DNA from: Clavelina lepadiformis
Lineage: Eukaryota > Chordata > Ascidiacea > Aplousobranchia > Clavelinidae
NCBI RefSeq assembly: GCF_947623445.1
Contig: NC_135243.1
Location: 22,142,479-22,206,478, forward strand
DNA length: 64,000 bases
Direction of reading: 5' to 3'
Positions 7,810 to 49,247 of this stretch are shown one piece after another. The position numbers and the translations under genes were made by a program. The notes beneath the pieces were generated by a model, which saw nothing but the letters and a program-made list of their open reading frames with translations, did not search any database and had not been told where the DNA came from. How positions within the stretch are numbered: the first letter of the stretch is position 1; each line of letters begins with the position of its first letter.

Positions 7810-10800
7810 TCACCATACAGATTGGAAAGATAAAGGAGCAGGAAGAGCTGGTATCCACCACAGCACAATGTGCAAACTGAAGCTGTTTGAAAGAAATTTT
7901 TGTTGTCCTTGTTTGGACCGTTCTTCGAATTTTATTGAAGGTGTATTCTGCAATGAAATTAAATTAACACTACTATGAATTCATTTGAAAGAAGTTGTGT
8001 ATGTACTGCTAGATTTTTCATTACATCTAAACTTGTAGAATTGGTTTATAGCTATATACTGGAAAAAGCGTAAACTGGCATTGTTAAATAGTTTTTTTGT
8101 CATTCAGTTGACATAAATACGAAACAGCAAAGTAGTTTTTATGCGCAGTAATTATACTTTATACAGTAGTGATAGTAGTAGGCCTACTTATGATTCTGAT
8201 TACAAATTTTGACATTTCAATGATACCTCGAAATGTTTGAACCACTTTTCTGCCACTGTTTCAGCTGCGTTTTCCAAATAACGATGTTCTACTTGCCCCT
8301 GTTTGAATGCACATGTGCGTGTATTGAGTACACGAGCTTAAACAACGACGGGAAAATAAAATGTTTTAGGTTTAGAATTAAGAGTTACCTTCATTGATTT
8401 GAACATTGACATTATTTCCTTTTTTAACTTGTTCAATGCTGTAGCTAAGCTATTATCGTTCATCTTGATATGATTAGCTTTGAGACGATTTTCAGCGTTT
8501 TCTTTTTCATTAGAATGGACTTTCAGGAATTCTTCAACGCCTGAGAAATCTTTTTTCTGCAGAAATACTTTGCTAGTAGTTGGCAGGAATAACGAAAATT
8601 AACAGTAAATTACAATTTATAAGGCTTACCATATGCATTCTGTACATTTCAACACATTCTTCTAAAAGGGCGTTGTTTTTTTCTTTTTTTTGTTCTAAAA
8701 GCTGTACAAACAGCATTTAAAAACCAAGATGCAATATTGCGAGATACTTTGTTTAAAAATTTTAGTAACTGGAAATTAAAATGCACATAATAAATTTCTA
8801 CTTTACTTTAATAGGCATTTGGACCGAGACCACATAAAATATTATAGTTGACCTTATAATGGTTTGAATATACTGAGTAAAAAATAAACATCATTTGTAT
8901 CTTGTAGTAACAATATACGTTAAAAATGATCCGATCAAACTATTTTTGAAAGCATTGATTGTTGAAAACATATATGTAACATCAAACAGATACAACTCGA
9001 TTTTAAAAATTTAAATGATGGTTATTTAGTCTAGGAATTGAAACAATAACAATACATATATATTTTCAATTTCTTGCAGCAAATTCTCTTGGCCCTTTAT
9101 CCTGAGGTCTTTGTTACCATGTTTCGATTTTTCTTGAAACTCATTGAGAGCTTTTTTCAAACCACGTTCATGACGCTCGTTGAGTGGTTCATTGCCAAAA
9201 TTCTGTAAACAGAAACTAGGTTTACTGTGAGCGACCAATCGTTTGATAATTATTAACTCTCATTAATTTCAGTTATTGGGTAATTTTCAGTTGGTAGCGT
9301 TCTTACCTGCAAGCACAATCTGTAGATGTCAACACAATCGCGGAAGATAAGTTCTATTTTAGCTGCTTTTCCCGCCTGTAGCGATTGATACATATATGTA
9401 AGAATGAAGCATACATGAAGTTAATTTCTGCTCAATTTTAGATTATAACTTTCCTCAAAATATGATTCTACTGTATCGATTGATCCTTGGTTGATGACAT
9501 CAGCAAAATGACTTGCGAATTCATATAGTTTCTTGCAATTAAGCTCTTCTGCGCCTTCCCGCTTCACCATGAGATTCTCATTCTTATTCTCAAAGCAGAG
9601 ATAATGGAAAAACTCAGTCGCTTTCTTCATAAAGACAAGGCCGACATCTGACAACAACGTTGCAATACTATTTTTAAGAACGAGATTTTGAAAATAGTTT
9701 TTGAAATATAAACCTGACTGTTAATAATAAAACTATTTACTATAAAGTTTTAAGGCAACGCAAAGAAAGAGCATGGGTTTTCATTAATTTAAGGTATTAT
9801 TACCTTTCATATCACAAACTTTGGAGTTTTTCCCCATTTCTTCGATTTTGGGAGCTGGAGAGGGCCAAAGATAACATGAAAGCTCCGAAAAGTTTTCTTT
9901 GAGGAATTTGTTGGTTTTGACGTTTTCATCTGCCCCGTCATCTCCGTCAAGAACAGTCTTGAGATAGCATTTTCCACCATACAAACCGTGCTTGTGATCT
10001 TCTATTGTTTTCCAGTCACGAATAAGGAACATGAAGTTCTGTTCCATAAAAAACCAAAATAAAGTGTAAAAAGAATTATCTTGTAACTATTGAAAACAGA
10101 AATACTCAATTACACTAAAATTATAGGTTTGTATTAAAATGAGTTTACGGTATGCCTTAAGTCCAAGTAACGGAATTGAATAGCTAGTTACTAACCTGGA
10201 CTAAAAAGCTAGACTTTGTATCTCTAACATTTTGTGCATACTCTGCAAAGTTCTGAAAAAGCGTGTAAAATTTTACTTAATGCGAAATTTCATAGCAATG
10301 CTATAAATCAATGCTAGTTTTTAGGTTGTTTTGTGTAAATAAACGTAAAATAAATCTTAATGCAATTTACCCCCAAAGCTTGAAGATGAAGGCTATCGAT
10401 GTTGGTTTTCAAGTTAAAGAATTGGTAGGAACTGAGTAACAGACTTAAGGCGAATAAAATTGAGCCTTCCTTTATACTGGACTTTTGATCAAATGCACCT
10501 TGTGTGTCCATAAGAAATAGAGCAACCTGCGTAGGAAACGATGAATCAAAGTTGGAAATAATGTTTAGTACTTTGATATTTTTAATCATACCTTTTTTTT
10601 GGTCTTGGTGGAGATTATAAATGGTTCCTTTGTAATCCATATTCCCTCCGTGCAGCCTTCACTGACTCCACCTTGGAACTTAAAAGGTCCAGTGAGAGGC
10701 TCTTTGTCGTTTGGGTCAAGTGGTGGTGGAACACTTTTTGTGGTCTTTTTACATAAAAGATTTATCGTGTTTGTCAAATTGAAACTTGTCGGTTAATGGA

Positions 10801-11253
10801 AGAAAAAAGTATCTTAATTAAAAGAAAACTTAACTTAAAACTTAAAAAAAACTTTTAATTGGGTATATATTCAAAATTAAATTTACATTACCTCTCTTCG
10901 TTCTAAATAACGAACAAACAAATTGAACAAAAAAGATTTTCCAGTTCGAAATGGACCTGCCACAGAATAAATTGCAACAGGATACTTTGCCACTTTCGGA
11001 TTTCCAAGAACCTTTTCAAGAACGCTTTTATCTAAGTTAATCTTTCCATTCTCTCTTTTGGTAATCTTTATCGCCTCAGTCTCGTTTACTGCAAAATATA
11101 TTGCACTTTTTTTAACGACGTAAATTGTTATTACTGCAAAAAATGAAGACAAATCAAGAAAGGTAATAATGATTTTAATCCTTTTTACTTACAGGATGTT
11201 GTAGAATAAAAATCTTCGTCTTCGTTTGAAAATTTTAACACATCAAAGTCCAT
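7810..11253 (-). CDS. Atlastin-like GTPase, locus 1, 3' end lost, chimeric tail
   Basis: Dynamin-superfamily GTPase most like atlastins, which fuse endoplasmic reticulum membranes; its role here is unknown. Exons (high to low coordinate): 11193-11253, 10892-11133, 10592-10744, 10371-10526, 10196-10252, 9804-10038, 9454-9647, 9307-9375, 9056-9202, 8630-8701, 8389-8556, 8227-8298, 7810-7947. All are phase-compatible. G1 is SVAGPFRTGKS in exon 2, G3 is LMDTQGAFD in exon 4 and G4 is FLIRDW in exon 6. The donor after exon 7 reads GAG|GAAAGT, so that intron would be GA-AG. A deletion junction at about 7918 cuts exon 13 after ten codons. Reading then continues for 35 novel codons in antisense flank DNA to a stop at 7810, giving about 587 codons. 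The last helical part and the glycine-rich C-terminal tail of its paralogues are absent. It could be a live variant or a pseudogene. Confidence 0.8.
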
Positions 11254-11395
11254 TCTCACGATCTTAAGCAAAGCATCAAAACAAAACTGCCTTTTCGGAA
11301 ACAATATTTGATTTTTATTTACTTTTCTTTCACCGTTAAAGTTCCATACTGTGTATAAGCGTTATAATATTCAATGAGTAACTGAAGTCATGTTT

Positions 11396-12548
11396 AACCT
11401 CATATCCCGTACATCTTGTGTTAAGCATTAGATTACGATACTTATTATGAGAGCACCAAGTTAGCTATGTTGGCAGAGCTTGCAATTTTCAACTACATAG
11501 TTAGTTCAATATGCTTTTAGTGCCGTTGTGGACTTTTTGACCAAGAAAAGTTAAACAATCGAATTTTGCAAGCGCGTTGACCTTTGAGCAAAGCTGACAA
11601 GGATTCTCCTCGAATTTCTTTGTGAATTTCTCCACGTGACGGTCAGAATTCTCATTAAGGTTGAATAAAAATTTGTTTGGTTAATTTGTTAAATTGTTTT
11701 TTTGCAATGAAACACGATGTTTGTAATTCATGGAAAGGAGCAGTTCACAGTGTTTCTGGTTTGTAAAGGAAACACATGAAAAATACGCTGAGAAGCACTG
11801 TTCAAAACTGTCAAATCGCACAACCATTTAAAAATGATGACGTTTCTGCTGAACTGGGCTTGGGTTTGGCATACCCGTAGTGTAAACCATTATATAATGA
11901 TTTAACTGCACTCTCTTACCTTTAATCTCGAAAATTAGTTTCGAATAAGCTCGAAATTTACTAAGCTTTGACCTAAATCAAAATACAAATACAATTTCCA
12001 ATGAACTATCTTACTGTTACATTAAACGGCGTTTAACCAATTTAATTATCGACATGCGACAACTAATTAATGCGACAACTCGCAATTGATAAATATGGCT
12101 CACATATGACCGTTACTCTTATCACTGCAACACATGACAAATGCAAATATAATGTACTCTTTGGCTGTTTTCAGGTTTACCCCTGTAAAGCAGTTGTCAA
12201 ACAAAGTATCATGTTTGGAGTGATTGCAACACTTACCAAAGGCTTGAGAGCTGTATCGTCTCGTTAATTATTAAATCACGTTTAAACGCTTCTTCAGATA
12301 TAGAATTGCAAAGCATGAATGATCGCATGGTTGCAGCTGACGTACAAAATTTTTACACTCAAACAACACTCACAAACGGTTGCAAAATTCAAGTGGCAAG
12401 CAACGGGGACCGTTGTATGTGACTTATTGACATTTTATTTCGTGTCAGTTATAGTTACAATGCAAGAGATAACTTGGCTATACCTATACTCTTTCGTACT
12501 ATTTTGATTGCAATAATCTGATACAGTTTGAAACACATTTTGTATGTG
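11396..12548. other. Upstream region of locus 1, no gene seen
   Basis: No gene is supported. The first bases are the diverged promoter side of locus 1. Its TATA-like stretch near 11361-11370 (ATATTATAAC on the minus strand) lies about 110 bases upstream of the ATG, at the same distance as in loci 3 and 4. The rest is unique AT-rich DNA. Short ORFs at 12070-12267 and 12319-12507 have no recognisable content. Confidence 0.5.
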
Positions 12549-12556
12549 GCATAGAA

Positions 12557-13318: not shown

Positions 13319-13734
13319 GCGTAAAACCATAAAACGTTAAACCCAGGGATGGAAACTCAATTGCGACATCATTTTTGTAACGCTTGAGCGTTGCTTTAGT
13401 TAACGCATTTCTCCGCTTGCAGATAAACTACTGTTGTAAGCTTGTTTTGTCCAGTTCGTCATCACAGTCCAGGTTAAACAGTGCCTTGTCTTCAATGGCG
13501 GTTTTGGTTTAAGTCATTGTAATGTATTATGCCCGTACCCAGCCTATGTTATGTTACCTCTATCTACGTTAAACCTGTGATGTTTAATTTATGTACATGC
13601 GCTACGTGCAAAAAGCAATTTCAGCCGTTAGGAAAAAACATTTTTGGTTCCTGTTCTTGATTTTCCTGCACCACCAACCACTTTGGCTGCAGATCTTCTA
13701 CCGCGATTCCAGCGACTGGAGGAAACTTATAACT

Positions 13735-14030
13735 TATGAAGTTATGAGCGCCAAGGTAGAACAGCTCACCATTTTACCTTCAGAAAGACACAACATACTT
13801 TAGGGACATACTTGAGGAACAACAGACTCTTTAATACTTTCATGCGAATTTTAACGAGAGAAAAATGCCGATTTTCAAGCTCATCTCCATCATAACTGAT
13901 GTATCATTAATTATCATTGGTCCCACCAGTGGGTTCATTACACTGTGTCAAGAAAGTGAACCTTTCCTGGATATGCTGAAATATTTCTGTATCATTCATC
14001 AACAAGCGTTGTGTTGAAAGATTGTAACTG
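13735..14030 (+). pseudogene. Old hAT transposase relic, unit C copy
   Basis: Third copy of the decayed transposase found at 7085-7560 and 42067-42640. Only its downstream part is present, beginning at the equivalent of YEVMSAKVEQLTILP, because the upstream part was lost in the internal deletion of unit C. The reading frame is broken in several places. Confidence 0.65.
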
Positions 14031-15678: not shown

Positions 15679-16211
15679 TCACCACCATGATTGTTTTGCT
15701 CCAATGCCATAGAGCGCACTAATTCCTGCTCCAACACCTAGAGCAATTCCAACTGGTGGAACGAAGAATCCCAAACCAACACCTAATGCCCCAACACCTC
15801 CGGCTGCACCAAACCCTGTTTCCATTTTTACCTTCCTATTTCGTTCATTGACCTCTTCATATTTCAAACTTGACTCTTTTTCCACTGACTCGTAGGTAGG
15901 CTTTCCTTTCTCATCATCTAAGTCACAATTCGTACTTTCTTTACTCGCTTTACGAAGATCGATCCTCTTGAGCTGACTTCAAGGAGCTAGGAAGAGTAAA
16001 ATAGCTCACCTATAAACAAATAACGATATTCAAAGTTTTGTCAGTATCAACAACACACATTAATTGCTTTTTCTTCATGTTCTGGTATTTGAAATGGTAC
16101 CTTCTTAGTAAATAAACAACATGAAAAGTTATTGAAATCAGACACCTTTTCAAGTTCGCTTCTGTGTTTTTCTGTTTCTTTATTTTCGATTAATTTGCGT
16201 TTCTTTATTAA
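15679..16211 (-). pseudogene. Atlastin-like GTPase 3' fragment (exons 14 and 15)
   Basis: Exon 14 is at 16146-16211 and encodes 22 residues resembling LIKxRKLIENKETEK. Exon 15 is at 15679-16009. Compared with locus 4, exon 15 carries a 4-bp insertion (gatc) near 15957-15961 that shifts the frame. Downstream of it the tail is well kept: EVNERNRKVKMETG, a glycine-rich stretch, and a final SWW before the stop. AATAAA on the minus strand (15660-15665) lies just after the stop and could be a poly(A) signal. No upstream exons exist, since the duplicated block ends at 16239. This is a solo 3' gene end that cannot make the family protein by itself. Confidence 0.87.
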
Positions 16212-16239
16212 CTGTATACAAGATGAAATGACACCATTA

Positions 16240-22006: not shown

Positions 22007-22014
22007 GTCTAAAC

Positions 22015-22550: not shown

Positions 22551-25500
22551 TCACCACCAATACTTTTTCGCACCCAACGCGTATAGACCACCTCCAACCA
22601 CACCAGCAGCAGCTATTATTCCTAGCGGTGGCAACAGTATAGAACCAAGTCCTAAAGCACCACCAACGCCGGCTACTACGCCTCCGGTTACCATCTTAAA
22701 CTTCTTATTTTTCTTTTTCATCTCTTCGTATGTAGATTCTGAGGTTTCTTTTAAACTGGACAGAGTTGCAATTGCGTTCTCGTCGTCAAGCTTAGCATGT
22801 GTACGTATGCGGCTCCTTTTAAGTAGTTTCTGCTGTTTCTTTTTCAAGGACTTTGGAGAAGTGAAACGATTCATCTGGAAAGTACGGTTTGGTGACACTT
22901 AATCACTAGGACATTTAATCACGCGACTCTTAATTACGCGACATATAATCACTAGGACATTTAATCACGCGACATTTAATCACACATTTACAGTATCGGC
23001 TACCGTACACACTAGGTAATAATGTCATGCATGGGAAATGTAAGCAACTGCACGAAGATAACTAAAATCTCGCTTGACAGATAACGGTCAACTGTGTCAA
23101 CACGATGACTGTCATCGTGTTGGTGATATTTCTGGCTAAATATCAAAGAGTTTCTAGCTGGTGGAAGTCAACTTTAAACCAATGTTTTCTGAATTTGACA
23201 GTTTAATTTAAATTATCATTAGAATTGTCGCGATACCCATCTATGCGTATATGTGGTGTACTTCGCTTTTGCAAAACTTTGTTTTAAGAAAAGTAATAGG
23301 TAAAAAGTTTTTTTTTCACGTCAGAACCGTTTAGATGGTACTTTGATCAAGAGCTTCGGTGACAATAGAATAATGTTACATATTACATAGGTTATACGTA
23401 GCAATGCAAAATGACATGTTATTTCCTGATTGGCTAATGTGTTTGTATAAAAACTTAAGGTTTGGTTAAAATCTCCCCTTCTTGTCTCTACACATAATAT
23501 CAGTTTTACCTTCTGGACTGTTCATTACTGAATTGGAGTTATAGTTTTGTTTAAATGTGAAAGGATGATGAAAATGTTTCTAATGTGATACAACTTACTT
23601 CGGACAATATAACAATTTGACTTTATGAAGCTGGTGTTGATTTAAAGAAACATTATAGAGAAAGCCGGCGCAACGCAGTCAAAGACAACTGTCGGGGAGT
23701 TCTAAAAGAAAGACTAATAACCTTTGGCTTTAGGCCAACCTTAAAAGCAATCCACATCGCCATCCCCACAGAGAGATGCACATGAGCTTGAATTACTGAA
23801 TTTTCCTCACGCTTTTCCGACATCCAAGTGATTATGTGTCGCGTGATTAAATGTCGCGTGAATAAGTATCCAAGTCGCGTGATTAAATGTCATAGTGATT
23901 ATGTGTCGCGTGATTAATTGTCCTAGTGATTATGTGTCGCGTGATTAAATGTCCTAGTGATTATGTGTCGGTGATTAAGCGTCGCGTGATTAAGTATCGC
24001 GTGATTAAGTGTCGGTACACCGGAAAGTACGTCTTAAGTTATGTTCAAACTTTAAATTTCTACATAGTATTGTTTCATAGGTTTCGTTGGTTACTTTCCG
24101 AGCTGCTTTAAACAGAGGTTATCAAATTTTTATCAATGGAGCCAATAACGAATAGCTTTGTGCAAATCTTTACCTTTTTTAGCTTCTCCTTGTGTTTTTT
24201 AGACTCCTCTTCCAAAATTGCTTTAGGTTCTTCTGCTAACTATGAAAAAGATGATTATTGTTTATAGGATATAACGTTACTCTTTTTTTACAGCAACAGT
24301 CACAATGTTTTTTGAATAATTGCGTAGAAGAAATATATTTTTTAATATTGTATCAATAAAGAGCATCGCATTGAAATGTCTTTATCGTAAAACATTGTGC
24401 CTACAGTTTATCACTTCAAGTTATATATATGGTTACATATTTTTCAACTTCTTTATCGATTTTTATTTTTAGTTGCATTCTGCCATCTTCGTGTAAATTT
24501 TCATCAATATTTTCTATTTCTTTGTTAAATTCTTGAAATAATCCATCTTGAACTTGACTATTATGCTCTTCAAAATTTTCCGAGTGTGGTTTCTAGGTAA
24601 CAAGCAAAAATGATTAACTCCAAAATATTTTTATTCACAGATCCTTTTTGAATAATTTTATATTAAAAAGTATGTGGCAACAAAGAGCAAAACATTCCTA
24701 ATCGTTAATTGCTCTTTTAAATGATATTCAGTAATACTGTACAAGAAAACATGTCCGAAATTTATCAAAGGAATGAAACGTTGTAAGAAATTGAAAAATA
24801 AATTACCTGAGATAAAAGCACGTACAAGATTGCTCATACGTTGTAAATTATTTTTTTACCTTGATCCTTATCAACCATGAATGAGCTAATCTATTCGATA
24901 CTTTCTCCAAATGACGTTGATCAACTTGAGTCTGTTTAATGGGAAAGTTAAAGGTCAGCACTTTGCAATCACTCACATAAGGTTGCAAACGCCCACAAAA
25001 ATGTTTCAAACTTTCCCAAAGTTACCTTCATCGCTTTAAAAATTAAGAGTACATTTTTTGTTAAATTGCTTTTTGCTTTAATCAGGCTTTGACTGTCAAT
25101 TTCCACAAGATTAGTTTCAAGATAAGAGTTGACTTTTTCTTGCATTTCGTCATGTTTCTTTTGGAACTTTGAAAGGTCAGTGAAGTTCTTCCCCTATAAA
25201 ATCACAAGTGGCGTCGGATATATGGATATGGAATTTAAACAAGTAATAAAGAAAGAAAGAGAAAGAATGTAGTTGAAACAAAGAGGGTGAAGCTCAAAGA
25301 AAAACAAAGTCAAAAAAAGGAAGCGGGGGAGAGAGAGAAAGTTGAAAGTGGAAGTAAAATAGAATAAAGCTACATTACCATGCCAGTTAGATACATTTTG
25401 ATGCATTCTTCAGCAAGCTTATCATTTTTTTCTTTGTTTTGTTCCATAACCTGAAAACACAGAATCCGGGATGAAGTTTAGGAAAGCGAAAAGTTACAGT

Positions 25501-28354
25501 ATGTTGTAGTTTAATATTATGTTTTAAGAATGAATCAGTTGAATTCTCAGATACTGCTTTGTACTTAATAAGTATTTTAAAGTTATGCGTTCAAATATTA
25601 AAGAAAGACAACGAAAATGGTAACAACTTCGGTTAAGTTTCAACGTAACATTGTAATGGAGTTAAATTACATAGATTTTATGAATTTCTTCTTGCAATTT
25701 CTTTTGTCCTTTTATTCTTATTTTTTCTTTGCTGTATTTTGATTTATCTCGAAACGCATCAAAAGCTTCCTTTCCACTCTTTTCATGACGGTATTCGAGA
25801 GAAGTTTCGTGACATTTCTATGTGAGTAAGTAATTGAGTTCTTTACAAAGCAATAATAACCATTAAAACTCCTTCAGGTGACTTGAAAACGCAAATACCT
25901 GCAAATGTTTTGTATAGATATCTACGCATTTGAAGACAAGAAGTTCCATTTTAGCTGCCTTGCCTGCCTATAACAATATGACATACATTTAAAGTTTTTT
26001 ATTAAATTTGATTTTCAATTTAATTACGTTTGCGTGGAGTTGACACCATAAGGGTAAATGTCGATACTTCTGTAAAAAGAACAAAAAACTAGTTTATCAG
26101 TAAATATTTCATTCTGCAAAACTGTAATTCAAAAGAAAAAGTCTTTGTATGCATTGAATACCGTACTAGATATTGAACACTGTTGACATGAACGCATTTT
26201 TACAGAGTTATGCAGAGTTGTTGAAACGGAGTATGGTTACCTCAAGATACGATTCTACAGACTCGGTTGATTCACTGTTGATGACGTCAGCGAATTCAAT
26301 TGCAAATTTATGTAACTGCTCACAAGTTACTACTTCATTGTTTATCTTCTTAACATTCCCCAAACCAAGACTGTTCTTATTGTGAAAGGTGGAAAAAAAA
26401 TTTACTGCAGTCTTCAAAAATTCAGCATCAATCTCTAACAAAATACAAGGTGTTTTTCATAATTGACTATTGACATAAAAAACACTGTTAAATATTTCTT
26501 AGCTTTTTAAAAATTGTTTATGTATTATTGATTGAACGTCTCTAATAAAGTAAAAACAGCTCGTAAACACTAATACGATCGCAAAATGCAACGAATTATT
26601 AAATTGTATTTCACAAGAAAAGATTGTTACCATGAACAGAACATGCTTTTAATTTTGATCCCATTCTTTTTATGTTAAGGCCTGGAGAAGGCCAAAGAAA
26701 ACACGAGATTCCAGAAAACGTTTCTTCCAGTAAAGTTTTGGTGTCAATATGCTCTTGGGCCCCATTTCCGTGCAACACTGTTTTGAGATAAGAATTGCCT
26801 CCTTCGACACCGTGAGAATGGTCGTCAACCATCTCCCAATCTCGAATCAAAAACATAAAATCCTGGCAACCAGAGCTAAAGTAAGGTTTCTAAGATTTTG
26901 TCGTTGCGAGATAATCATAACAACGTGTTGTTTTATTACATGCACGAATGTCAGTAAAGATATTATGTTCGTCATACTATGAATTCAATTTACAGCGCGC
27001 CTTCCTGCGGTTTTTATTCTAGAGTTAGGTGAAAAAAAGTAAAATAAACATTTTACCAACCTGAAACGGACAACTGTATTTTGTATCTTTAACTTTGGTC
27101 GCATACTCTGCAAATTTCTATGAAAATATATCAAAAAATTATCTTATCTGTGGCTAGACATATACTCAAACAGATATAGGCTTTTAATTAAATACAACAC
27201 AAACTATACTAACGCTCAAAGCTTGAAGATAAAGGCTGTCAATTTTATCTTTAAGATTAAAGAATTGATAGGAGCTGAGTAGGAGACTAAGAGCGAGTAA
27301 AATGGCACTTTCTTCAGTGCTAGACATGTGATCGAATGAACCTTGCGTGTCCATAAGGAATAGAGCCACCTGTGCCAAAACAAAGAAAATTAAAGTTACT
27401 GGATAAAGAAGTAATGAGCAGAGAACAGTTTTCATAAAACTATAAGGTTTCAAACTTACTAAAACAAATTTTGTAACGGATTAACATAAGACACTAAACA
27501 TTATAAGTTCGGGCTTTCCAGTTAACAAAATCGTAAAAGGTTTCACATTTGTTCTGTAGCCATGAGTATAAGGTGTCAAACTATAAGATTAAGGTTTTAT
27601 CAAAATCACCTCTCCGTTTTGTTGGGTAGAGATTATGTAAGGCTCCGTGGTGATCCATATTCCTTCCGTGCAACGCTCGCTTGCTCCTCCTCGAAATTTA
27701 AAGGGTCCTAATATTTGATCTTTGTCGTTGGGATTAAGCTGAAGTGAAACGCGTATAGTTGTAGAGGATCATTTAATGAGCATTTCATAACTTCTAAGTT
27801 ACACCGACTGCATTATTGGCACTGCAGTTGTACGAAATTATCTATAGTGCATATCAGTACAAGTATCACGAAAGTATCATTCATATGTTTTTAAGAATAA
27901 AGCAAGGTTTTTTCAGGTTGTAGAAATAAACATACGCTTTTTCCTTCCAAATAGCGAACAAACAAATTAAACAAGAAAGATTTTCCTGTTCGAAAAGGTC
28001 CCGCTACCGAATAAACCGCAACTGGATACTTTGCCACGGTTGGATTTCCCAGCACTCGCTCAAGAGCGTCTTTATTTAATGTGGTTTTCCCGTTTTCTTT
28101 TTTGATGATATTAATTACTTCAGAAGACGTTGCTGCTGAAACATGTAAATTTTAAACAATCCTTCTTATATTGTACCGTGCTTAAAATTAAAAGAATGAA
28201 TGCACTCATTTTAGTATTGATTAGAAAGTTTTCTAATTTACTCACCAAAAGCAGTTTTCAACATTTTTGTTCCTGCGTCTACTCCATCTGATATTTGACC
28301 GATCAACCGCGACGCTGCCTGTTCGTACACATGCGATCCTAGCGGAATACTCAT
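22551..28354 (-). CDS. Atlastin-like GTPase, locus 2, divergent and intact
   Basis: About 716 codons in 15 exons: 28246-28354, 27936-28135, 27610-27738, 27214-27369, 27061-27117, 26631-26862, 26241-26434, 25899-25967, 25671-25817, 25379-25450, 25026-25193, 24860-24931, 24437-24592, 24174-24239, 22551-22874. All donors are GT, all acceptors AG, and the phases agree. The GTPase part runs to about residue 330: G1 GPFRTGKS at 82-89, G3 DTQG at 153-156, and RDW at 224-226. Exons 8 to 14 encode charged, helical, coiled-coil-like sequence. The last exon ends in a glycine-rich hydrophobic stretch with LLPPLG in the middle, closing with KKYWW. Exon 1 is longer than in loci 1, 3 and 4. The last intron is enlarged by a foldback element beside its acceptor. 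The atlastin likeness is clear for the GTPase domain only; the cellular role is unknown. Confidence 0.88.
22886..24021. mobile_element. Foldback DNA element with tandem-repeat arms
   Basis: A 1136-bp insertion flanked by an exact 9-bp duplication GGAAAGTAC (22877-22885 and 24022-24030). Both termini begin GGT and share GACACTTAATCAC in inverted orientation. The arms consist of degenerate tandem units of about 16 bp (GTGATTAAATGTCGCG). The right arm (about 23828-24021) is longer than the left (about 22886-22990). A 9-bp duplication and long inverted arms suggest a Mutator-like non-autonomous element, but this is inference. An interior open stretch at about 23623-23780 (reading VDLKKHYRESRRNAVKDNC) may be a relic of coding sequence. 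It lies in the last intron of locus 2, immediately upstream of the exon 15 acceptor. Confidence 0.87.
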
Positions 28355-31142: not shown

Positions 31143-34100
31143 TCACCACCATGAATTTTTTGCTCCAAAGCCGTAGAGTGCACTAATTCCTGCTACAACA
31201 CCTAGAGCAATTCCAACTGGTTTAAAGACGATTCCCACACCAACACCTATTACCACACCACCTCCGGCTGTACCAAACCCTGTTCCCATTTTTACCATCC
31301 TATTTCGTTCATTGACCTCTTCATACTTCAAATTTGACTCTTTTTCCACCAAAGTGTAGGTATTATTTCCATTCATAACATCTAAGTCAACATCCGTACG
31401 TTTTTTACTCGCTTTAAGAAGATCCACTTGAGTCGACTTCAAGGAGCTAGGAGGAGTAAAATAGCTCACCTATAAACAAGTAACGATATTCAAAGTTTTG
31501 TCAGTATCAACAACACACATTACTTACTTTTTCTTCAAGTGCTAGTATTTGAAATGCTACTTTTTTGGTAAATAAACAACATGAAAATGTATTGAAATTA
31601 GATACCTTTTCAAGTTCTTTTTTGTGCTTTTCTGTTTCTTTATTTTCGATTAATTTGCGATTCTTTATTAACTGTGAAATTAATAAAATGAAATGACACC
31701 ATTCAAAAGTTTGAATGAATCTTATGAAAACAGTTATATTGAAGTTGCTTTTGTATTTAACAAAGAAAAGTTTTGAATAAACGTTTCGTTAAAGAATAAA
31801 ATTTTCATTTAAACTTTTTTTTAAATTGACGTTAAAAGTAAAGCATTCTTACGTAATTTTTCATGAAATTGTTGATCCTTTTTATGAGAATGCTTTGTCC
31901 CTTTTCATTCAAACTTTTATCAAAGTCTTTTGTTTCCTCATCAAAACACTTCAATAATTCACTTTGTACTTGATCACACCGTTCTTCGAATTTTATTGAA
32001 GGTGTATTCTGCAATGAAATTAGATTAACACTACTGTACTATGATTTCTTTTGAAACAATTTGTTTATGTACTGCTAGGTCTTCATTACATCTAAGTTTA
32101 AAATAAGTACTTGTAGAATTGCTTTATAGCTATATACTGGAAAAAATGTAAGCGTAAACTGGCATTGTTAAATAACATTCGTGGTATTCAGTTGACATCA
32201 ATACGAAACAGCAAAGTAGTTTTTATGCGCATTAATTATACTTTATACAGTAATGATAGTAGTAGGCCTACTCATAATTCTGATTACAAACTTTGGCATT
32301 TCAGTGATACCTCGAAATGATTGAACCACTTTTCTGCCACTGTTTCAGCTGCGTTTTCCAAATAACGATGTTCTACTTGCCCCTGTTTGGATGCACATGT
32401 TCGTGTATGGAGTACATGAGCTTAAACAACGACAGGAAAATAAAATGTTTCAGGTTTATAATTAAGAGTTACCTTCATTGATTTGAACATTAACATTATG
32501 TCCTTTTTTAACTTGTTTAATGCAGTAGCTTCGCTATGATCGTTTATCTTGATATGATTAGCTTTGAGACGATTTTCAGCGTTTTCTTTTTCATTAGAAT
32601 GGCCATTCAGGAATTCTTCAATGCCCGAGAAATCTTTTTTCTGCAGAAATACTTGCTAGTAGTTGGCAGGAAGTAAGGAATAACGAAAATGAACAGTAAA
32701 TTACAATTTATAAGGCTTACCATACGCATTCTGTACATCTTAACACATTTTTCTAAAAGGGTGTTGTTTTTTTCTTTTTTTTGTTCCAAACGCTGTACAA
32801 ACAGCATTTCAAAATCAAGATGCAATATTGCGAAAAACGTTGTTTAAAAATTTATATAATTGGCAATTAAAATGAACATAATATATTGCTACTTTACTGT
32901 AGTAGGCATTTGGACCGAAACCACATAAAATATTATATTTGACCTTATAATAGTTTGAAAATACTGAGTAAAAAAAAAACATCATTTGTATCTTGTAGTA
33001 ACAATATACTTTAAAAATGAGTTGATAAAATCATTTTCGAAAGCATTGATTGTTGAAAACATATATGTAACATCAAACAAATACAACTCGATTTTAAAAA
33101 TTCAGATGATGGTTATTTAGTTTAGAAATTGAAACAATAACAATACATATATCTTATCAATTTCTTGCTGCAAATTCTCTCGGCCCTTTATCCTGAGGTC
33201 TTTGTTACTATGCTTCGATTTTTCTTGAAACTCATTGAGAGCTTTTTTCATACCTCGTTCATGACGCTCGTCGACTGGTTCGTTGCCAAAATTCTATAAA
33301 CAGAAACTACTTGAGCGACCAATCGTTTGATTATTAACTCTAGTTAATTCCGGTTATTGGGTAATTTTCAGTTGGTAGCGTTCTTACCAGCAAGCACATT
33401 CTGTAGATCTCAACGCAATCGCGGAAGATAATTTCCATTTTAGCTGCTTTTCCCGCCTGTAGCGATTGATACATATATGTAAGAATGAAGTTAATTTCTG
33501 CTCAATTTTAGATTATAACTTTCCTCAAAATATGATTCTACTGTATCGATTGATCCTTGGCTGATGACATCAGCAAAATGACTTGCGAATTCATATAGTT
33601 TCCTGCAATTAAGCTCTTCTGCGCCTTCCCGCTTCACCATAAGATTCTCATTCTCAAAGCAGAGATATTCGAAAAACTCAGACGCTTTCTTCATAAACTC
33701 AGTGCCGACATCTGACAACAACGTTGCAATAATATTTTTAAGAACAAGAGTTTGAAAATAGTTTTTGAAGTATAAATCTGACTGCTATTAGTAAAACTAT
33801 TTACTAAATAGTTTTAAGTTAACGCAAAGAAAGGGCATGGGTTTGCATTTATTTATGGTATTATACCTTTCATATCACAAACTTTGGAGTTTTTCCCCAT
33901 TCCTTCGATTTTGGGATCTGGAGAGGGCCAAAGATAACATGAAAGTTCAGAAAAGTTTTCCTTGAGGAATTTGTTAGTTTTGACGTTTTCATCTGCCCCG
34001 TTATCTCCGTCAAGAACAGTATTGAGATAGCATTTTCCACCATACAAACCGTGTTGGTGATCTTCTATTGTCTTCCAGTCACGAATAAGGAACATAAAGT

Positions 34101-35333
34101 TCTGTTCCATAAAAAACCAAAATAAACTTGTAAAAAGAATTATCTTGTAACTATTGAATACAGAAACACTCAATTACACTAAAAATATAGGTTTGTATTA
34201 AAATGAGTTTACGGTATGTCTTAAGTTCAAGTAATGGAATTGAATAGCTAGTTACTAACCTGGATTAAAAAGCTAGACTTTGTATCTCTAACATTTTGTG
34301 CATACTCTGCAAAGTTCTGAAAAATCGTGGAAAATTTTAGGTAATGCGAAATTTCATAGCAATGTTATAAATCAATGCTAGTTTGTAGGTTGTTTTGTGA
34401 AAATAAACGTAAAATAAATCTTTATGAAATTTACCCCCAAAGCTTGAAGATGAAGGCTATCGATGTTGGTTTTCAAGTTAAAGAATTGGTAGGAACTGAG
34501 CAACAGGCTTAAGGCGAATAAAATTGAGCCTTCCTTTATACTAGACTTTTGATCAAATGCACCTTGTGTGTCCATAAGAAATAGAGCAACCTGTGTACGA
34601 TATGATGAAGCAAAGTTGGAAAGAATTTTTAGTACTTTGATATTTTTAATCATACCTTTTTTTTGGTCTTGGTGGAGATTATAAATGGTTCCTTTGTAAT
34701 CCATATTCCTTCTGTGCAACCTTCACTGACTCCACCTTGGAACTTGAAAGGTCCTGCTAGTGGCTCTTTGTCGTTTGGTTCAAGGGGTGGTGGAACGCTT
34801 TTTGTGGTCTTTTTACATAAAAGATTTATCGTGTTTGTCAAATTGAAACTTGTCGGTTAATGGAAGAAAAAAGTCTCTTAATTAAAAGAAAACTTAATTT
34901 AAAACTTAAAGAAAACTCTTAAATGGGTATCTCAAGATTATCTCAAGATCTCAAAATTTAATTTACATTACCTCTCTTCGTTCTAAATAGCGAACAAACA
35001 AATTGAGCAAAAATGATTTTCCAGTTCGAAATGGACCTGCCACAGAATAAATTGCAACAGGATACTTTGCCACTTTTGGATTTCCAAGAACCTTTTCAAG
35101 AACGCTTTTATCTAAGTTAATCTTTCCATTCTCTCTTTTGGTAATGTTTATCGCCTCAGTCTTGTTTACTGCAAAATATATTGCACTTTTTTTGACGATG
35201 TAAATTGTTATTACTGCAAAAAATGAAGACAAATCAATAAACGTAATAAAGATTTTAATCCTTTTTACTTACAGGATGTTGTAGAACAAAGTTTTTCGTC
35301 TTTTTTTAAAAATTCTAACACATCATTGTCCAT
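31143..35333 (-). CDS. Atlastin-like GTPase, locus 3
   Basis: About 722 codons in 15 exons: 35273-35333, 34972-35213, 34656-34808, 34435-34590, 34260-34316, 33867-34101, 33524-33711, 33388-33456, 33147-33293, 32721-32792, 32473-32640, 32311-32382, 31853-32008, 31606-31671, 31143-31469. Exon sizes equal those of locus 4 except exon 1 and a 6-bp shorter exon 7. Motifs: GPFRTGKS at 80-87, DTQG at 159-162, RDW at 230-232. Residues from about 370 to 615 are helical and rich in E, K and N. The tail ends in a glycine-rich hydrophobic segment with KPVG in its middle and final KNSWW. All splice sites are canonical except the donor after exon 7 (GAG|GAAAGT). No frame break was seen. A TATATAAA lies 109 bases upstream of the ATG. 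The substrate is presumably GTP; the partner membrane is unknown. Confidence 0.87.
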
Positions 35334-35449: not shown

Positions 35450-35480
35450 TTTAATGACTAACTGAAGTCATTTTTAAAAA

Positions 35481-41300: not shown

Positions 41301-42066
41301 TTGTTAACTTTTTCCTTTCTAGCGTTGGAGGAATGCAGCGGCCTGGGTGGTATCCTTGATACCATTATGTTAGTTCTTGTGAAAGTGTTTAGTTATTAAT
41401 TGAAGTTTATGAATCTGTTTTTACATGAACACTTCAACCGTCGATTGATATTTGGAACCTTGCTTTGAGTAAATTCGTGTGAACAACTCCTTTTCGTGGT
41501 TTCCCGCCTTGTTTTCCGGCATCTATTGTTATAAGAAGTCTTTATCGGAAATGCCCGCTTCAGAACTTTAACACTAATTATTTATTCATGTCTTGATGTT
41601 TCAGCTTTAGCTACATGTATCTCCCATTGTCTAAACTCTAAACATTCTTATGTCCGATGCACCAGAAAAACACACAGGGTTTTTTATGTCGAACATTTTA
41701 ACTCTCTTCATGTTATAAGCTCGCACTTCTACCAGTCAAGCAGAGTTGGCCGAGTGAAACACCAAGATCAACAGATGAGTTATCTAAGTCGGACATGGTG
41801 ATTGCAATTCAATAGACATCTTGTAAGCGTTACCATCGTCTATGTTTTCTTGTAAACTATTTCTGTTGTAATATTAAAACATTTCGACCGACAAAAGGTT
41901 AAAGTATTCTAACCACACGTAACCATATAGTCAGATAATTCAACAGGTAAATTAAGTTAAGACAAGTGAAGTTATTAAGTAATTATTAGGTTATATAATT
42001 GTTAATAGTTATTAAGTAAAGCTACCCTTATAAGTCAAAAAGTCCTCTTCAGACCCTTGGTAAAAC

Positions 42067-42640
42067 AGCGAACAAAATATTGATTCGTATCGCGTCAGTT
42101 TCGTACTTAACAAACAAAAGAAGCCGTTCAGAGACCGCGATATTGTGAAGGATGCCTTTCTCGACGCAGCAGACAACCCTTCAAACGAATTCAAAAATAA
42201 AACAGCGATCGTGAAGGTCATAAAAGAAATGCAACTCTTCCGTAATATTACTACAAGGCAATGTGAGGGAATGGCGGTGGATATGGAGGAGCAACTGAGG
42301 AAGAATATTGACACGTGTAAACGACTTTTCCTTAAAGTTGATGAGTCGACTGATACGTTAGTAGTAGAGTATGATTTTTGAAGCTATGAGCGCCAAGGAA
42401 GAACTGCTCACCATTTTACCATTAAAAGGACACACCAGAGGTGACGGTATCTTTAATACTTTCATGCGAATTGTTAACGAGAGAAAAATGCCAATTTTCA
42501 AGCTGATTTCCATCACAACTGATGCGGCTCCTGCTTTATCATTGGCCGCACCAGTGGATTTATTACACTGTGCAAAGAAAGTGAGCCTTTCCAAGATATG
42601 CTGAATTATTTCTGTATAATTCATTAACAAGTGTTGTGTG
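42067..42640 (+). pseudogene. Old hAT transposase relic, best-preserved copy
   Basis: Internal fragment of a GTF2IRD2/ZBED-like hAT transposase. The frame is open over about 42067-42381 and gives SYRVSFVLNKQKKPFRDRD, FKNKTAIVKVIKEMQLFRN, QCEGMAVDMEEQLRKNIDTC and LKVDESTD, matching the start of the transposase core. A frame change follows. The next part reads AKEELLTILPLKGHTRGDG, IFKLISITTDAAPA and LLHCAKKVSL. The BED finger and the C-terminal dimerisation region are missing. It differs from the younger transposase at 4825-6597, where the corresponding parts are only distantly similar. Confidence 0.83.
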
Positions 42641-44338
42641 GAAAGATTTTAAACGACAGCTATGACTGATACCACCTTGTAGAGTGCAGACTGCCCACGC
42701 TTTGTAACAAGCTCCTACATTCCTGATTATGAGAAGTTAGTTTCTTCTTCCCAGTTTAAGGTCCCCCACTAAAGTTGGAAATGATTTCCTTATTTGAAAT
42801 TCTGCGACCCCTGTTTTGTATCCACAGTAGTTTATTTTTGCGTTAAGTTCATCGAAACGTCTGTTACGGCTATTGCTCATCATACAGATTTGGAAGATAA
42901 AGGAGCTGCAGGAGCTGGTATCCACTACAGCAAAATGTGCAAACTGAAGCTGCGTGAAAGAATTTTTTTGTGTACCTTGTTTGGAAGAAAGCAGGTTTGG
43001 GATGTAATATACAGCATCGTATGACAACAAAGAAAATGTTTGCTTACCGCGGTAGATACGGTACGGTACAGCAGGCTGGAAATTGTAAGTGTAGATTTGC
43101 GATGCTTATGGTGGACTTATAGATCTGGGGAAGTTAGCTACTTAAAAAGTAGACCTTGGATCACAAAAGGTTAGGCACCCTCGTTTACGCTAAAATCCTT
43201 TTCTTACGTTTTTTATGTTTTTATTTGCTTTAGTTCGACGTTCTTAGAAACATGCTCGTTCTCCTAGGTTTTATTACAAACAGATGTTTGTCTCCAGCTA
43301 AAGGGAAGCATATTCAAAAATATCTTTATATTAATTTCGTCAGTCAATCATCTTTGTAACTTTCAGCCGTATGGGGCATTTTACTCTGTTTAATATTATT
43401 TCTGAACAGTATCAATAAAACAGATCGAATTGCTTTGGTTAGATAGGTTTTTTATTAGGCTATATCAATTTACATTGTTTGCAGATACATTACAAAAATC
43501 ATATTTCAAAGAATTTGCTGGTAGGCCTACAGAAGGGAAAATAGTACTGTATACAAGCGAAGATCGCTACAACAAAAACAATATAATTTCACACGTACAG
43601 CTACAAACTAGGTTTAAATTAAAACTAATACAGCTATAAATGTCTAAACGGGTTTCTTTATGCAAATTATAAATGCATTAACCATTACTTCATTTTTCTA
43701 CAAAAAATACAATAGTAGCCGTACAATCCTAGCAAGGACAATGTCTTTCACATTGTGGTTAACAAACTAAATCAACAAGGCGGCCATAACGCTTTTAACT
43801 TTAATAGTATTTTAAGCAAACTGTTTTTTACTGAAACAGATAAAAAAATATTTAATCTTCAAAGCAAAATTTCCAGGTAAAAAACAGTAGCCTACTACAC
43901 ATTTGGAAGGTGTTCATTTTGGAGCGTTTAACTGATTCAGTATAAAAGCAATACTTGAAATATATTTCTCCGTCTAAAAACATATATTTTTTACATTTAT
44001 TTGTATCAAATAAGCTTCAGCTTTTTAAACAAAAATTTTCAATTGTTATTAAGTTAGCTTTGCAACAAGATTTAAAGTTGACATAAGAACGGAGCTACTG
44101 TAAAAATACATTCTACCGATTACCATCAAATTCTCCAGTTAACTTTCAGAATATAGTGGTTCTAGTTCAAGCAAACATAGAATCTGGGACTTTAAATCTT
44201 GGTTTCCTTTCAAAAAAGTTAATAACATGCAAAACTAATTGAAACCCCAAATCATGTTTCAAATCATCTCGATATTTGAGAGAACCCAAATTCTAACATT
44301 CAAACTCAATTGTGAAGATTTAATTGCATATGTCTAAT

Positions 44339-47300
44339 TCACCACCATGATATTTTTGCTCCAATGCCGTACAGTGCACTAATTCCTGCTCCAACACCTA
44401 GAGAAATTCCAACTGGTGGAGCGAAGAATCCCACAACAACAGCTAATGCCACACCACCTTTGGCTGCACCAAACCCTGTTTCCATTTTTACCTGCCTATT
44501 TCGTTCATTGACCTCTTCATATTTCGAATTTGACTCCTCTTTCACGGACTCGTAGGTGGGCTTTCCTTTCTCATCATCTAAGTCACAATCTGTACGTTCT
44601 TTACTCGCTTTAAGAAGATCCTCTTGAGCTGACTTCAAGGAGCTAGGAAGAGTAAAATAGCTCACCTATAAACAAATAACGATATTCAAAGTTTTGTCAG
44701 TATCAACAACACACATTACTTGCTTTTTCTTCGAGTGCTGGTATTTGAAATGGTACCTTCTTGGTAAATAAACAGCATGTAAAGTTATTGAAATGAGATA
44801 CCTTTTCAAGTTCGTTTTTGTGATTTTCTGTTTCTTCATTTTCGATTAATTTCTGGTTCTTTATTAACTGTATACAAGATGAAATGACACCATTTTAAAG
44901 TTTGAATAAATCTTATAAAAACAGTTATATTGAAGTTGCTTTTGTATTTCACAAATTAAATGTTTGAATCAACTTTTCGTTGAAACTTTTTTTTAAATTG
45001 ACGTTAAAAGTAAAGCATTCTTACGTAATCTTCCATGGAATTATTGATCCTTTTTATGAGCATGCGTTGTCCGTTTTCATTCAAACTTTCATCAAAGTCT
45101 TTTGTTGCCTCATCAAAACACTCCAATAATTCACTTTGTACTTGATCACACCGTATTTGAAATTTTATTGAACGTTTCTTCTGCAATGAAATTAAATTAA
45201 CACTATTATGAATGCATTTGAAACGATTTGTTTATGTACTGCTAGATCTTCATTACATCTAAGTTTAAAATAAGTACTTGTAAAATTGGTTTATAGCTAT
45301 ACACTGGAAAAAATGTTAGCGTATTATGGAATTGTTAAATAACATTCGTGGCATTCAGTTGACATCAATACGAAACAGCAAAGTAGTTTTTATGCGCCTT
45401 AGTTATACTTTATACAGTAATCATGGTAGTAGGCTAGCTTACTCATAATTCTGATTACAAACTTTGGCATTTCAATGATACCTCGAAACGTTTAAACCAA
45501 TGTGCTGCCACTGTTTCAGCTGCCTTTTCCAAATAACGATGTTCTACTTGAACCTGTTTGGATGCACATGTGCGTGTATTGAGTACACGAGCTTAAACAA
45601 CGACCGGAAAATAAAATGTTTTAGGTTTAGAATTAAGAGTTACCCTCATTGATTTGAACATTAACATTATGTCCTTTTTTAACTTGTTTAATGCAGTAGC
45701 TAAGCTATGATCGTTCATCTTGATATGACGATCTTTGAGACAATTTTCAGCGTTTTCTTTTTCATCAGCATGGACATTCATGAATTCTGCAAGGCCCGAG
45801 AAATCTTTTTTCTGCAGAAATACTTTGCTAATAGTTGGCAAGAAGTAAGGAAAAACGAAAATGAACAGTAAATTACAATTTTTAAGGCTTACCATACGCA
45901 TTCTGTACATCTCAATACATTCTTCTGAAAGAGCGTTGTTTTTTTCTTTGTTTTGCTCTAAACCCTGTACAAAAAGCATTTCAAAATCAAGATGCAATTG
46001 CGAAAGACTTTGTTTAAGAATTTATGTAATTGGCAATTGAAATGCACATAATATATTGCTACTTTACTTTATTAGGCATTTCGACTGAGACCACATAAAA
46101 TATTATAGTTGACCTCAGGGTTTTTTTAAGGTTTGGTTTGGGTGACCGCTAAGTAGTTCTAAGAGTTGCAAGTTTTAACAGTTTTAACAGTTTTTAGTTG
46201 CAAGTTCAAATTTTGGAAAACCGCTGGAGAAATTTGGGGGACCGTTTCGGTCTCCCAAAACACCTTAAAATAAACACTGGTTGACCTTATAATAGTTTGA
46301 ATATACCGAGTAAAAATAAACATCATTTGTATCTTGTAGTAACAATATACGTTAAAAATGAGCTGATAAAATCATTTACTAAAGCATTGATTGTTGAAAA
46401 CACATATGTAACATCAAACAAATACAACTCGATTTAAAAAATTTAGATTATGGTTTTTTAGTTTAGAAATTGAAACAATAGCAGTACATATATCTTATCA
46501 ATTTCTTGCTGCAAATTCCCTTGGCCCTTTATCCTGAGGTCTTTGTTGCTATGCTTCGATTTTACTTGAAACTGATTGAGAGCTTTTTTCCTACTTCGTT
46601 CATGACGCTCGTTTAGTCGTTCGTTGCCAAAATTCTGTAAATAGAAACAACTTTTAATGTGAGCGACCGATCGTTTGATTATTAACTCTCATTAATTCCA
46701 GTTTTTTGTGTAATTTTCAGTTGATAACGTTCTTACCTGCAAGCACATTCTGTAGATGTCAACGCAATCGAGAAAGATAAGTTCCATTTTAGCTGCTTTT
46801 CCCGCCTGTAGCGATTAATACGAATATGTAAGAATGAAACATACATGAAGTTAATTTCTGCACAATTTTAGATTATAACTTTCCTCAAAATATGATTCCA
46901 CTGTATCGATTGATCCTTGGTTGATGACATCAGCAAAATGACTTGCGAATTCATATAGTTTCCTGCAATTAAGCTCTTCTGCGCCTTCTCGCTTCACCAT
47001 AAGATTCTTATTCTCATTCTCAAAGCAGAGATAATGGAAAAACTCAGACGCTTTCTTCAAAAACTCAAAGCCGACATCTGACAACAACGTTGCAATATTA
47101 TTTTTAAGAAAAAGATTTTGAAAATAGTTTTTTGAAGTATAAATCTGACTGTTAATAATAAAACTATTTACTATAAAGTTTTAAGGCAACGCAAAGAAAG
47201 AGCATGGGTTTGCAGTTATTTATGGTATTATACCTTTCATATGACAAACTTTGGAGGTTTTCCCCATTCCTTCGATTTTGGGAGCTGGAGAGGGCCAAAG

Positions 47301-49247
47301 ATAACATAAAAGTTCAGAAAAGTTTTCTTTGAGGAATTTGTTGGTTTTAACGTTTTCATCTGCCCCGTCATCTCCGTCAAGAACAGTATTGAGATAGCGT
47401 TTTCCACCATACAAACCGTGCTTGTGATCTTCTATCATTTTCCAGTCACGAATAAGGAACATGAATTTCTGTTCCATAAAAAAACCATAATAAACTTGTT
47501 AAAAGAATTATCTTGTAACTATTGAAAACAGAAATACTCAATTACAGTAAAACTATAGATTTGTATTAAAATGAGATAACGGTATGCCTTAGGTCTAAGA
47601 AACGGAATTGAATTGCTAGTTACTAACCTGAAATAAAAAGCCAGACTTTGTATCTCTAACATTTTGTGCATACTCTGCAAAGTTCTGAAAAAGCGTGTAA
47701 AATTTTTGTTAATGAGCAATTTCAAAGCAATGCTATAAATCATTGTTAGTTTCGAGGTTGTTTTGTGAAAATAAACATGAAATAAATCTTAATGCAATTT
47801 ACCCCCAAAGCTTGAAGATGAAGACTGTCGATGCTGGTTTTCAAGTTAAAGAATTGGTAGGAACTGAGTAACAGACTTAAGGCGAATAAAATTGAGCTTT
47901 CTTTTATACTGGCCTTATGATCAAATGCACCTTGTGTGTCCATAAGAAATAGAGCAACCTGCATAGGAAACGATGAATCAAAGTTGGAAAGAATTTTTGG
48001 GAACTTTGATATTTTTAATCATACCGTTTTTTTGTTCTTGGTGGAGATTATAAATGGCTCCTTTGTAATCCATATTCCCTCTGTGCAACCTTCACTAGCT
48101 CCACCTTTGAACTTAAAAGGTCCTGTGAGCGGCTCTTCGTCGTTTGGGTCAAGGGGTGGTGGAACGCTTTCTATGGTCTTTTAACATAAAAGATTTATCG
48201 CGTTTGTCAGATTGAAGCTTAACCCTATTCTCACTAGGTGTGGCTTCTCCTGCACACAGTCACAGCAAACCGTTGCGTATTGTTGCATTGTTTGCTGTAG
48301 AAACCTGAAATTTGGTGACTTTTCCTAAAAAATGTTCAGCTATCTGTCCATGTTCATTTTATAAAGTTGGAGTTTGTAATTTTTGAGATATTGTCATATT
48401 TTCATAATTTTGCTCTCTCTCCGCATTTAAGCGTGTTGTTTTCGTTCACTCATTTACGCACCACTAATTCGACTAACTATTCTCTTGCGTTCTCTTCTCG
48501 CGGTCAGCTGGTTTTCGGCACAGCGGGGGCGCGGCGTAATAAGAAAACATTCTAGAAATGTATCACTTTTAAAAATACTTAATTTACACTAAATTCACTT
48601 TCTTTAATTTTGTAATTATGGTGTATACAGGAAGCCAGATGTTTTTGCTACTAACCTGTAAAAATCTGATCAGTTTACGACGTATAGTTTTCAAGTAATT
48701 AACGATTGAAAATGTGTGTGCAGTGTCGGCCACACCTAGTAAAAATAGTTAAGTCGCGAGCCCGGTATGAATAGGGTTAACTGTCGGTTAATGGAAGAAA
48801 AAAATCTCTTAATTAAAAGAAAACTTAACTTAAAACTTAACTTAAAACTTAAAGAAAACTTTTAATTGGGTATATCTTAAAATTTAATTTACTATACCCC
48901 TCTTCGTTCGAAATAACGAACAAACAAATTGAGCAAAAACGATTTTCCAGTTCGAAATGGACCTGCCACAGAATAAATTGCAACAGGATACTCTGCCACT
49001 TTCTCATTTCCAAGAACTTTTTCAAGAGCATTTTTATCTAAGTTAATCTTTCCATTCTCTCTTTTGGTAATGTTTATTGCTTCAGTCTTGTTTACTGCAA
49101 AATACATTGCACTTTTTTTAACGATGTAAATTGTTATTACTGCAAAAAATGAAAACAAATCAAAAAAAAGGTAATAAAGATTTTAATCCTTTGGTACTTA
49201 CAGGATGTTGTAGATTCGCTTAAAAATTTTGACACAATTGATTTCAT
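44339..49247 (-). CDS. Atlastin-like GTPase, locus 4
   Basis: About 719 codons in 15 exons: 49202-49247, 48898-49139, 48025-48177, 47803-47958, 47628-47684, 47234-47468, 46884-47077, 46737-46805, 46488-46634, 45893-45964, 45644-45811, 45482-45553, 45025-45180, 44802-44867, 44339-44665. Motifs: GPFRTGKS at 75-82, DTQG at 154-157, RDW at 225-227. The middle region is helical and charged. The last exon gives a glycine-rich hydrophobic stretch broken by APPVG and ends KISWW. The donor after exon 7 is GAG|GAAAGT, as in loci 1 and 3; the others are canonical. Introns 2 and 9 contain private MITEs (48223-48776 and 46116-46279). ATTAAA on the minus strand at 44319-44324, about 15 bases past the stop, may serve polyadenylation. 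No frame break was seen. Confidence 0.87.
46116..46279. mobile_element. 164-bp hAT MITE in intron 9 of locus 4
   Basis: Termini CAGGGTTTTTTTAAGG and CCTTAAAATAAACACTG are inverted repeats. The element is flanked by an exact 8-bp duplication GTTGACCT (46108-46115 and 46280-46287). Units A and the locus 3 unit have the uninterrupted GTTGACCTTATAAT sequence at this place (or a close variant), confirming insertion after duplication. Confidence 0.93.
48223..48776. mobile_element. 554-bp TTAA-flanked MITE (piggyBac-like) in intron 2 of locus 4
   Basis: It is bounded by TTAA at 48219-48222 and 48777-48780. The ends are CCCTATTC and GAATAGGG, with the longer word CTAGGTGTGGC repeated in inverted orientation further inside. 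TTAA targets and CCC/GGG ends are piggyBac traits. Loci 1 and 3 lack the insertion at the same intron position. The ORF at 48367-48555 inside is not recognisable. Confidence 0.9.

Follow-up and report, generated by a model that had tools for sequence, protein, structure and literature searches.

Background

Atlastins, RNF112 and the vertebrate GBPs have related GTPase (G) domains and are the closest described systems to the genes presented here. The middle domain of GBPs is composed of two three-helix bundles according to the accessible part of a review (PMC9005921), and RNF112 (PDB 9JJU) has one three-helix middle domain according to the accessible part of PMC12012479. Canonical atlastins (ATL1, ATL3, fly atlastin) combine their GTPase motifs with a three-helix bundle and a hydrophobic stretch near the C-terminus. 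We studied an array of atlastin-like genes in the ascidian Clavelina lepadiformis. The stretch analysed, called the window throughout, comprises 64,000 nucleotides of contig NC_135243.1 (positions 22,142,479 to 22,206,478, forward strand).

A question raised in the accessible text of the GBP review is whether defence was taken over by atlastins in those invertebrates that lack GBPs (PMC9005921). In the silkworm, overexpression of BmAtlastin-n, a divergent paralog present beside canonical atlastins, inhibits a baculovirus, as stated in the available sections of PMC4926086. At 770 amino acids this protein is similar in length to the products of our array; the same sections report it without transmembrane segments, and the likeness is drawn from that description. 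They also state that there are no GBPs in Ciona. The Clavelina proteome has been used in PMC12373286, where the GTPases discussed, in the portion available, are GIMAPs.

We propose that the array encodes GTPases derived from atlastin that act on membranes and evolve under diversifying pressure, plausibly in cell-autonomous defence. We give this reading a probability of roughly 0.5.

Results

The array lies on the minus strand. Gene D (44339..49247) is predicted to have 15 exons and to encode 713 amino acids, forming an atlastin-like GTPase domain, an extended helical region (stalk) and a hydrophobic tail. Genes C (31143..35333, 721 amino acids) and B (22551..28354, 707 amino acids, last intron 1.3 kb) are predicted with the same 15-exon plan. 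Gene A (8227..11253), modelled for exons 1-12, is a deletion copy, and a solo 3' end (15682..16238) is homologous to exons 14-15, with an apparent frameshift in exon 15. The sequence-only reading of three full-length loci, one shortened locus and one solo 3' end on a common plan and strand thus agrees with our models, all of which are predictions from genomic DNA without transcript backing. Upstream of the window the array continues with L029, L030 and L031, giving seven genes and the solo end in total. L029 is 95% and L030 52% identical to B, and L031 is 99% identical to A over 515 aligned residues. Open frames of 13-15 exons are kept in B, C, D and L029-L031.

The motifs GPFRTGKS, DTQG and RDW, already recognized in the sequence-only reading, are present in all four window genes. 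In gene D the GTPase domain occupies exons 2-6 (47235..49139, minus strand), with G1 GPFRTGKS, switch-I CTEGI, G3 DTQG and G4 RDW. The domain is of atlastin type: DTQG and RDW occur in 7/7 array proteins, and the PF02263 profile, run on C and D, matches them with E-values of 5e-41 and 6e-43, respectively. Among proteins of known structure, D is closest to ATL3 (E 1.2e-45), ATL1 (1.9e-41) and fly atlastin (3.6e-38), followed by a far weaker match to RNF112 (2.1e-22); GBPs reach 1e-7 or weaker (GBP5 1.1e-7). The array genes also have the P-loop arginine and the switch-I threonine, which we take to be catalytic in GBP1 and atlastin. By analogy, their products would dimerise in a GTP-driven manner and act on membranes.

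The genome also contains a canonical atlastin, L001, with an E-value of 2e-188 to fly atlastin. L001 is intronless and codes for 536 amino acids from the methionine used, with a hydrophobic stretch of 50 residues followed by about 50 residues. It shares the GTPase motifs, the first three-helix bundle and the hydrophobic stretch with the array genes. These differ from it in having 15 exons instead of one, in being multigene, in a further segment of about 240 residues that separates the first bundle from the hydrophobic stretch, and in a stretch ending 5-13 residues from the C-terminus, compared to about 50 in canonical atlastins.

Two trees were calculated. The first contained 35 sequences: 31 divergent paralogs of the 42 loci described below, three canonical atlastins (L001, human ATL1 and ATL3) and a 144-residue piece of GBP1. 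The canonical atlastins stood apart from all 31 divergent paralogs with support 100, and the GBP1 piece fell among loci of chromosome C6 with support 41. In the second tree (34 sequences, 30 divergent, with a longer piece of GBP1) the canonical atlastins were again separate (100/100) and the array on chromosome C4 formed a clan (98.8/100). A check set beforehand asked whether the window proteins belong to a one-to-one atlastin group. They fall outside the clan of L001, ATL1 and ATL3, and an assignment as one-to-one orthologue was therefore rejected. By their sequences, none of the window genes is the orthologue of atlastin; this statement does not extend to one origin for all divergent loci.

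The genes might instead belong, as divergent members, to the GBP family of vertebrates, with canonical atlastin as a derived lineage. Like the array genes, vertebrate GBPs have the PF02263 domain, a long helical region and a clustered, multigene organization, and when the second tree is drawn from GBP1, canonical atlastins are nested among divergent sea-squirt lineages. This nesting is weak (29.5/42), and the GBP1 branch has a length of 2.3, so that the trees leave the root unplaced. In the structure-database search, the E-values of atlastin and GBPs lie some 38 orders of magnitude apart, in favour of atlastin. GBP_C (PF02841) was not matched by C or by D at a threshold of E<=1, and an exon-wise search of the genome for it, of limited sensitivity, gave a single match of 19.8 bits, below the cut-off of 24.3, inside L001. 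A CaaX box is found in 0/7 array proteins (A is truncated), the hydrophobic tail of the full-length ones is a further difference, and GBP1 has DTEG and RDF in place of DTQG and RDW. We consider GBP membership very improbable, and a vertebrate-type GBP was rejected on the missing GBP_C and CaaX and on the motifs. RNF112 was rejected as well, as no RING domain was matched in a scan that covered C and D.

Local expansion of a divergent family of atlastin-like GTPases had been described in the sequence-only reading. The PF02263 matches, the structural ranking and the separate L001 support this, and the expansion is moreover genome-wide. PF02263 gave at least 101 exon-level matches, a total that is a lower bound, and loci were counted by hand as matches covering the G3 exon. 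At least 43 such places were found, namely the canonical atlastin on C7 and at least 42 divergent loci on seven chromosomes (among the matches listed, 2 on C1, 10 on C2, 13 on C3, 8 on C4, 1 on C5, 3 on C6 and 5 on C9). The window array is thus one of several clusters, whose DNA was examined in part. On C3, three G3-exon matches (2585280, 2595723 and 2606152) have identical scores and lie 10.4 kb apart; they are a recent tandem triplication. A search of the assembly for COX1, made for the mitochondrial code, gave no match. No report of a tunicate expansion of this kind was found in the literature searched, mostly outside subscription journals, and no named family of close homologues has been described within that searchable scope.

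So many copies could also reflect passive turnover of a duplication-prone region, with many copies decaying and the family gaining no particular function over its one or two ancestors. Gene A has lost its last exons, the solo 3' end carries an apparent frameshift, and at least one match (C1:27793522) has three stops inside its G3 exon. Segmental duplication has also copied a 3-kb flanking block (window 1215-4325 and 38615-41702, 88% identical), so the duplication units exceed the genes. The open frames of 13-15 exons in six array genes speak against this alternative, as do the rates of change in the G domain.

Rates were estimated as omega (Nei-Gojobori), and nonsynonymous excess in stalk and tail relative to the G domain was assessed by Fisher tests, uncorrected. 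In old pairs, omega is 0.18-0.26 overall, with synonymous divergence (dS) near saturation, and 0.12-0.20 in the G domain. In recent pairs it is 0.17-0.45 in the G domain, 0.54-1.20 in the stalk and 0.51-1.45 in the tail (A has no tail), with the pair C-D reaching 1.20 and 1.45 in stalk and tail. These G-domain values, in recent and old copies alike, leave passive turnover unlikely. Stalk and tail change significantly faster than the GTPase domain in five of the six recent pairs tested: C-D (p 3e-4), C-L031 (0.001), A-C (0.006), D-L031 (0.019) and B-L029 (0.035). The pair A-L031 has only nine changes, none of them in the stalk, and was too similar to be among the pairs tested. As judged from these sequences, the faster change of stalk and tail fits either diversifying selection or relaxed constraint.

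Relaxed constraint after duplication is what would be expected if the proteins were tissue- or stage-specialised membrane tethers or fusogens of a colonial animal, acting in budding, tunic or secretion. The atlastin-type GTPase domain and the hydrophobic tail agree with such housekeeping roles, and omega of 0.18-0.26 in old pairs means that purifying selection keeps the proteins. RNF112 and atlastin remodel endomembranes, according to the accessible part of PMC12012479. On the other side, tissue specialisation does not usually require so many divergent loci (at least 42), nor remnants bearing deletions or frameshifts alongside recent tandem copies, and the nonsynonymous excess in stalk and tail recurs in 5/6 recent pairs. 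We regard specialised housekeeping as rather unlikely, with a better chance than passive turnover.

The helical region, of about 350 residues, was described in the sequence-only reading as unlike that of atlastins. This does not apply to its first part, as residues 39-428 of D align with ATL3 through the three-helix bundle, nor to that part of the rest which resembles copies of the bundle; it does apply in that about 240 further residues precede the tail. The middle domain of the array proteins is thus not a single bundle leading to a membrane segment. In gene D (minus strand) the atlastin-type three-helix-bundle module m1 comprises exons 8-9 (46488..46805, 69 + 147 bp). It is followed by two proposed diverged copies, m2 in exons 10-11 (45644..45964, 72 + 168 bp) and m3 in exons 12-13 (45025..45553, 72 + 156 bp). 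All three share a short-long exon plan. Their profiles, which are shallow, were compared against 100 column shuffles and a reversed control. The atlastin bundle scored 30.7 with m1 (maximum shuffle 17.3, reversed 10.9), m1 scored 29.2 with m2 (maximum shuffle 16.6, reversed 8.2) and 25.4 with m3 (maximum shuffle 19.3), and none of the 100 shuffles reached these scores in any of the three comparisons. This weakly suggests that m2 and, less so, m3 may be diverged copies of m1. Neither the second bundle nor the tail of GBP1 resembled m2 or m3 more than shuffles did, and both were rejected as their source, which is a further point against GBP membership; comparisons with the first GBP1 bundle were reached by 1/40 shuffles for m1 and 2/40 for m2.

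Duplication of such exon pairs is directly observed in L014 (C2:1.4245-1.4344 Mb). This locus contains a 478-bp unit in 5.0 copies of 97% identity, each with a 69-bp exon (VEIEIVVQKCQEWFISNFTNSVK type; five tblastn matches, 91-100%) and a 171-bp exon (five matches, 93-100%), the 171-bp exon being in phase 0-0 in 5/5. In the sister loci L012 and L013 each module exon is present once, so stalks can grow by exon-pair duplication. A hidden Markov model (HMM) built on seven first-module sequences was searched against 29 loci, the best reversed-sequence match having an E-value of 0.012. At E<=0.006 it found five modules in L014, three in L026 (one of 19 residues) and two each in L025, L032 and L033, where duplication is probable. 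Among 30 second-exon matches at other loci, phase 0-0 is the best splice solution for 22 and one of the solutions for 28, counts made without a random control. Two findings are new: the size of the family across the genome, next to an ordinary atlastin, and the lengthening of the helical arm through exon-pair duplication.

Exon 15 of gene D (44339..44665, minus strand) encodes a Gly/Ala-rich hydrophobic stretch (residues 669-700) and ends in GAKISWW. Pfam gave nothing above cut-off for this exon. A protein search of the genome with it found exactly seven places at E<=0.01, all within the array at C4:22.118-22.187 Mb (D, the solo end, L031, C, L029, B and L030). All six full-length array genes have such a stretch, of 32-41 residues with a proline near the middle. 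The last exon of genes in the C2 sister cluster carries an Ala/Gly-rich hydrophobic domain lengthened by tandem repeats. These coding minisatellites consist of a 24-bp unit repeated 10.7 times in L014 (8617-8873, AGSTVAAA), a 24-bp unit repeated 4.3 times in L013 (1643-1763) and 30- and 42-bp units in L012 (682-851).

The copies in the window are real duplications, as A, C and D are 85-92% identical to each other over kilobases of DNA and the best exons of B match them at 72-78%. The B protein is 47-49% identical to those of C and D. Homology of A to D stops at 7903 (D 45136), leaving an exon 13 stub at 7947-7891, and the adjoining side of A (7085-7917) matches the downstream flank of D (42148-42985). 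This jump indicates that A has lost about 2 kb by deletion, including exons 14-15 and all of exon 13 but the stub. Modelled introns of B, C and D have GT-AG boundaries throughout and are in phase 0 except after exons 1 and 6; first exons as modelled have 15-36 codons. Exon 7 ends in GAG|GT in B (26241, minus strand, as all four) and L029, and in GAG|GA in C (33542), D (46902) and A (9472). The models of A, C, D (and L031) therefore take a weaker upstream GT, with an uncertain junction, and the VESYFEE reading in A, C and D may be skipped or joined via a non-canonical donor.

Several other features were observed. Between array copies, a 485-amino-acid open frame on the plus strand (5019-6476) appears hAT-type transposase-like by eye, with nothing above cut-off in Pfam (best DUF2205, E 0.076). 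From 51409 to 64000, a 2491-bp unit is repeated head-to-tail in at least five copies of 100% identity and runs past the window end. It matches neither Pfam nor Rfam, and Rfam gave 0 matches over the window. Relatives of the unit (95-98%) lie on C1 and at C4:21.36 Mb, with 4 of 601 candidates scored; three C1 places are spaced exactly 62,675 bp.

Discussion

The proposed function can be outlined by analogy with atlastin, RNF112 and GBP1. GTP-dependent dimerisation of the G domains would swing the helical arm, while the tail would insert in or grip a membrane, so that the protein could tether, coat or remodel membranes. The extra modules would give an arm longer than that of atlastin, and its length would evolve by tandem duplication of exon pairs, as seen in L014. 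The family would undergo birth-and-death evolution against changing targets, most likely in cell-autonomous defence. The birth-and-death reading comes from the number of loci, the mix of old and young copies, the deletion remnants and the more rapid amino-acid change in stalk and tail compared to the GTPase. Defence, the immune role raised in the sequence-only reading, is plausible and is favoured by the multigene family, its clustering and turnover, the stalk and tail pattern, the parallel with GBP clusters (accessible part of PMC9005921) and BmAtlastin-n (available sections of PMC4926086). We would give a defence role as counterpart of the vertebrate GBPs an even chance.

Several results weigh against this proposal, and the weakly supported nesting of canonical atlastins in the GBP1-drawn tree speaks against a simple account of descent. 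In the rate analysis, the pair A-D shows no contrast between stalk and tail and the G domain (p 0.42), the tests are not independent because recent pairs share branches, and omega near 1 can mean relaxed constraint instead of diversifying selection. For the modules, reversed m3 still scored 19.0 with m1. The score of m2 with m3 (14.6, matched by 5/100 shuffles) and those of atlastin with m2 and m3 (reached by 8/100 and 7/100) are not above shuffles. The first-module HMM did not recover exon 11 of the window genes, and its single match to exon 13, in D, had an E-value of 0.028, weaker than the reversed control at 0.012. The fold of exon 15, predicted from the four window copies, has a mean pLDDT of 51, so helicity and topology of the tail remain unproven. 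Finally, the alignment lacks the P-loop arginine in L012, L013, L014, L017 and L028, and some of these five sampled paralogs may thus not be active GTPases; from their sequences, they may be impaired or regulatory ones. L013 has RKS in place of GKS in its P-loop.

Conclusions

We tentatively suggest, as a possibility that falls short of an even chance, that atlastin has given rise, in a chordate that lacks recognisable GBPs, to clustered and rapidly evolving membrane GTPases that form a GBP-like arsenal. Arm length would be evolvable through duplication of a two-exon bundle module (one to five copies), and the length of the membrane segment in the sister cluster would be set by a coding minisatellite. 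The L014 series, with one versus five helical modules, offers natural material on what arm length does in the dynamin family. A tunicate with one ordinary atlastin and at least 42 divergent loci makes the question of whether atlastins stand in for GBPs in defence directly testable.

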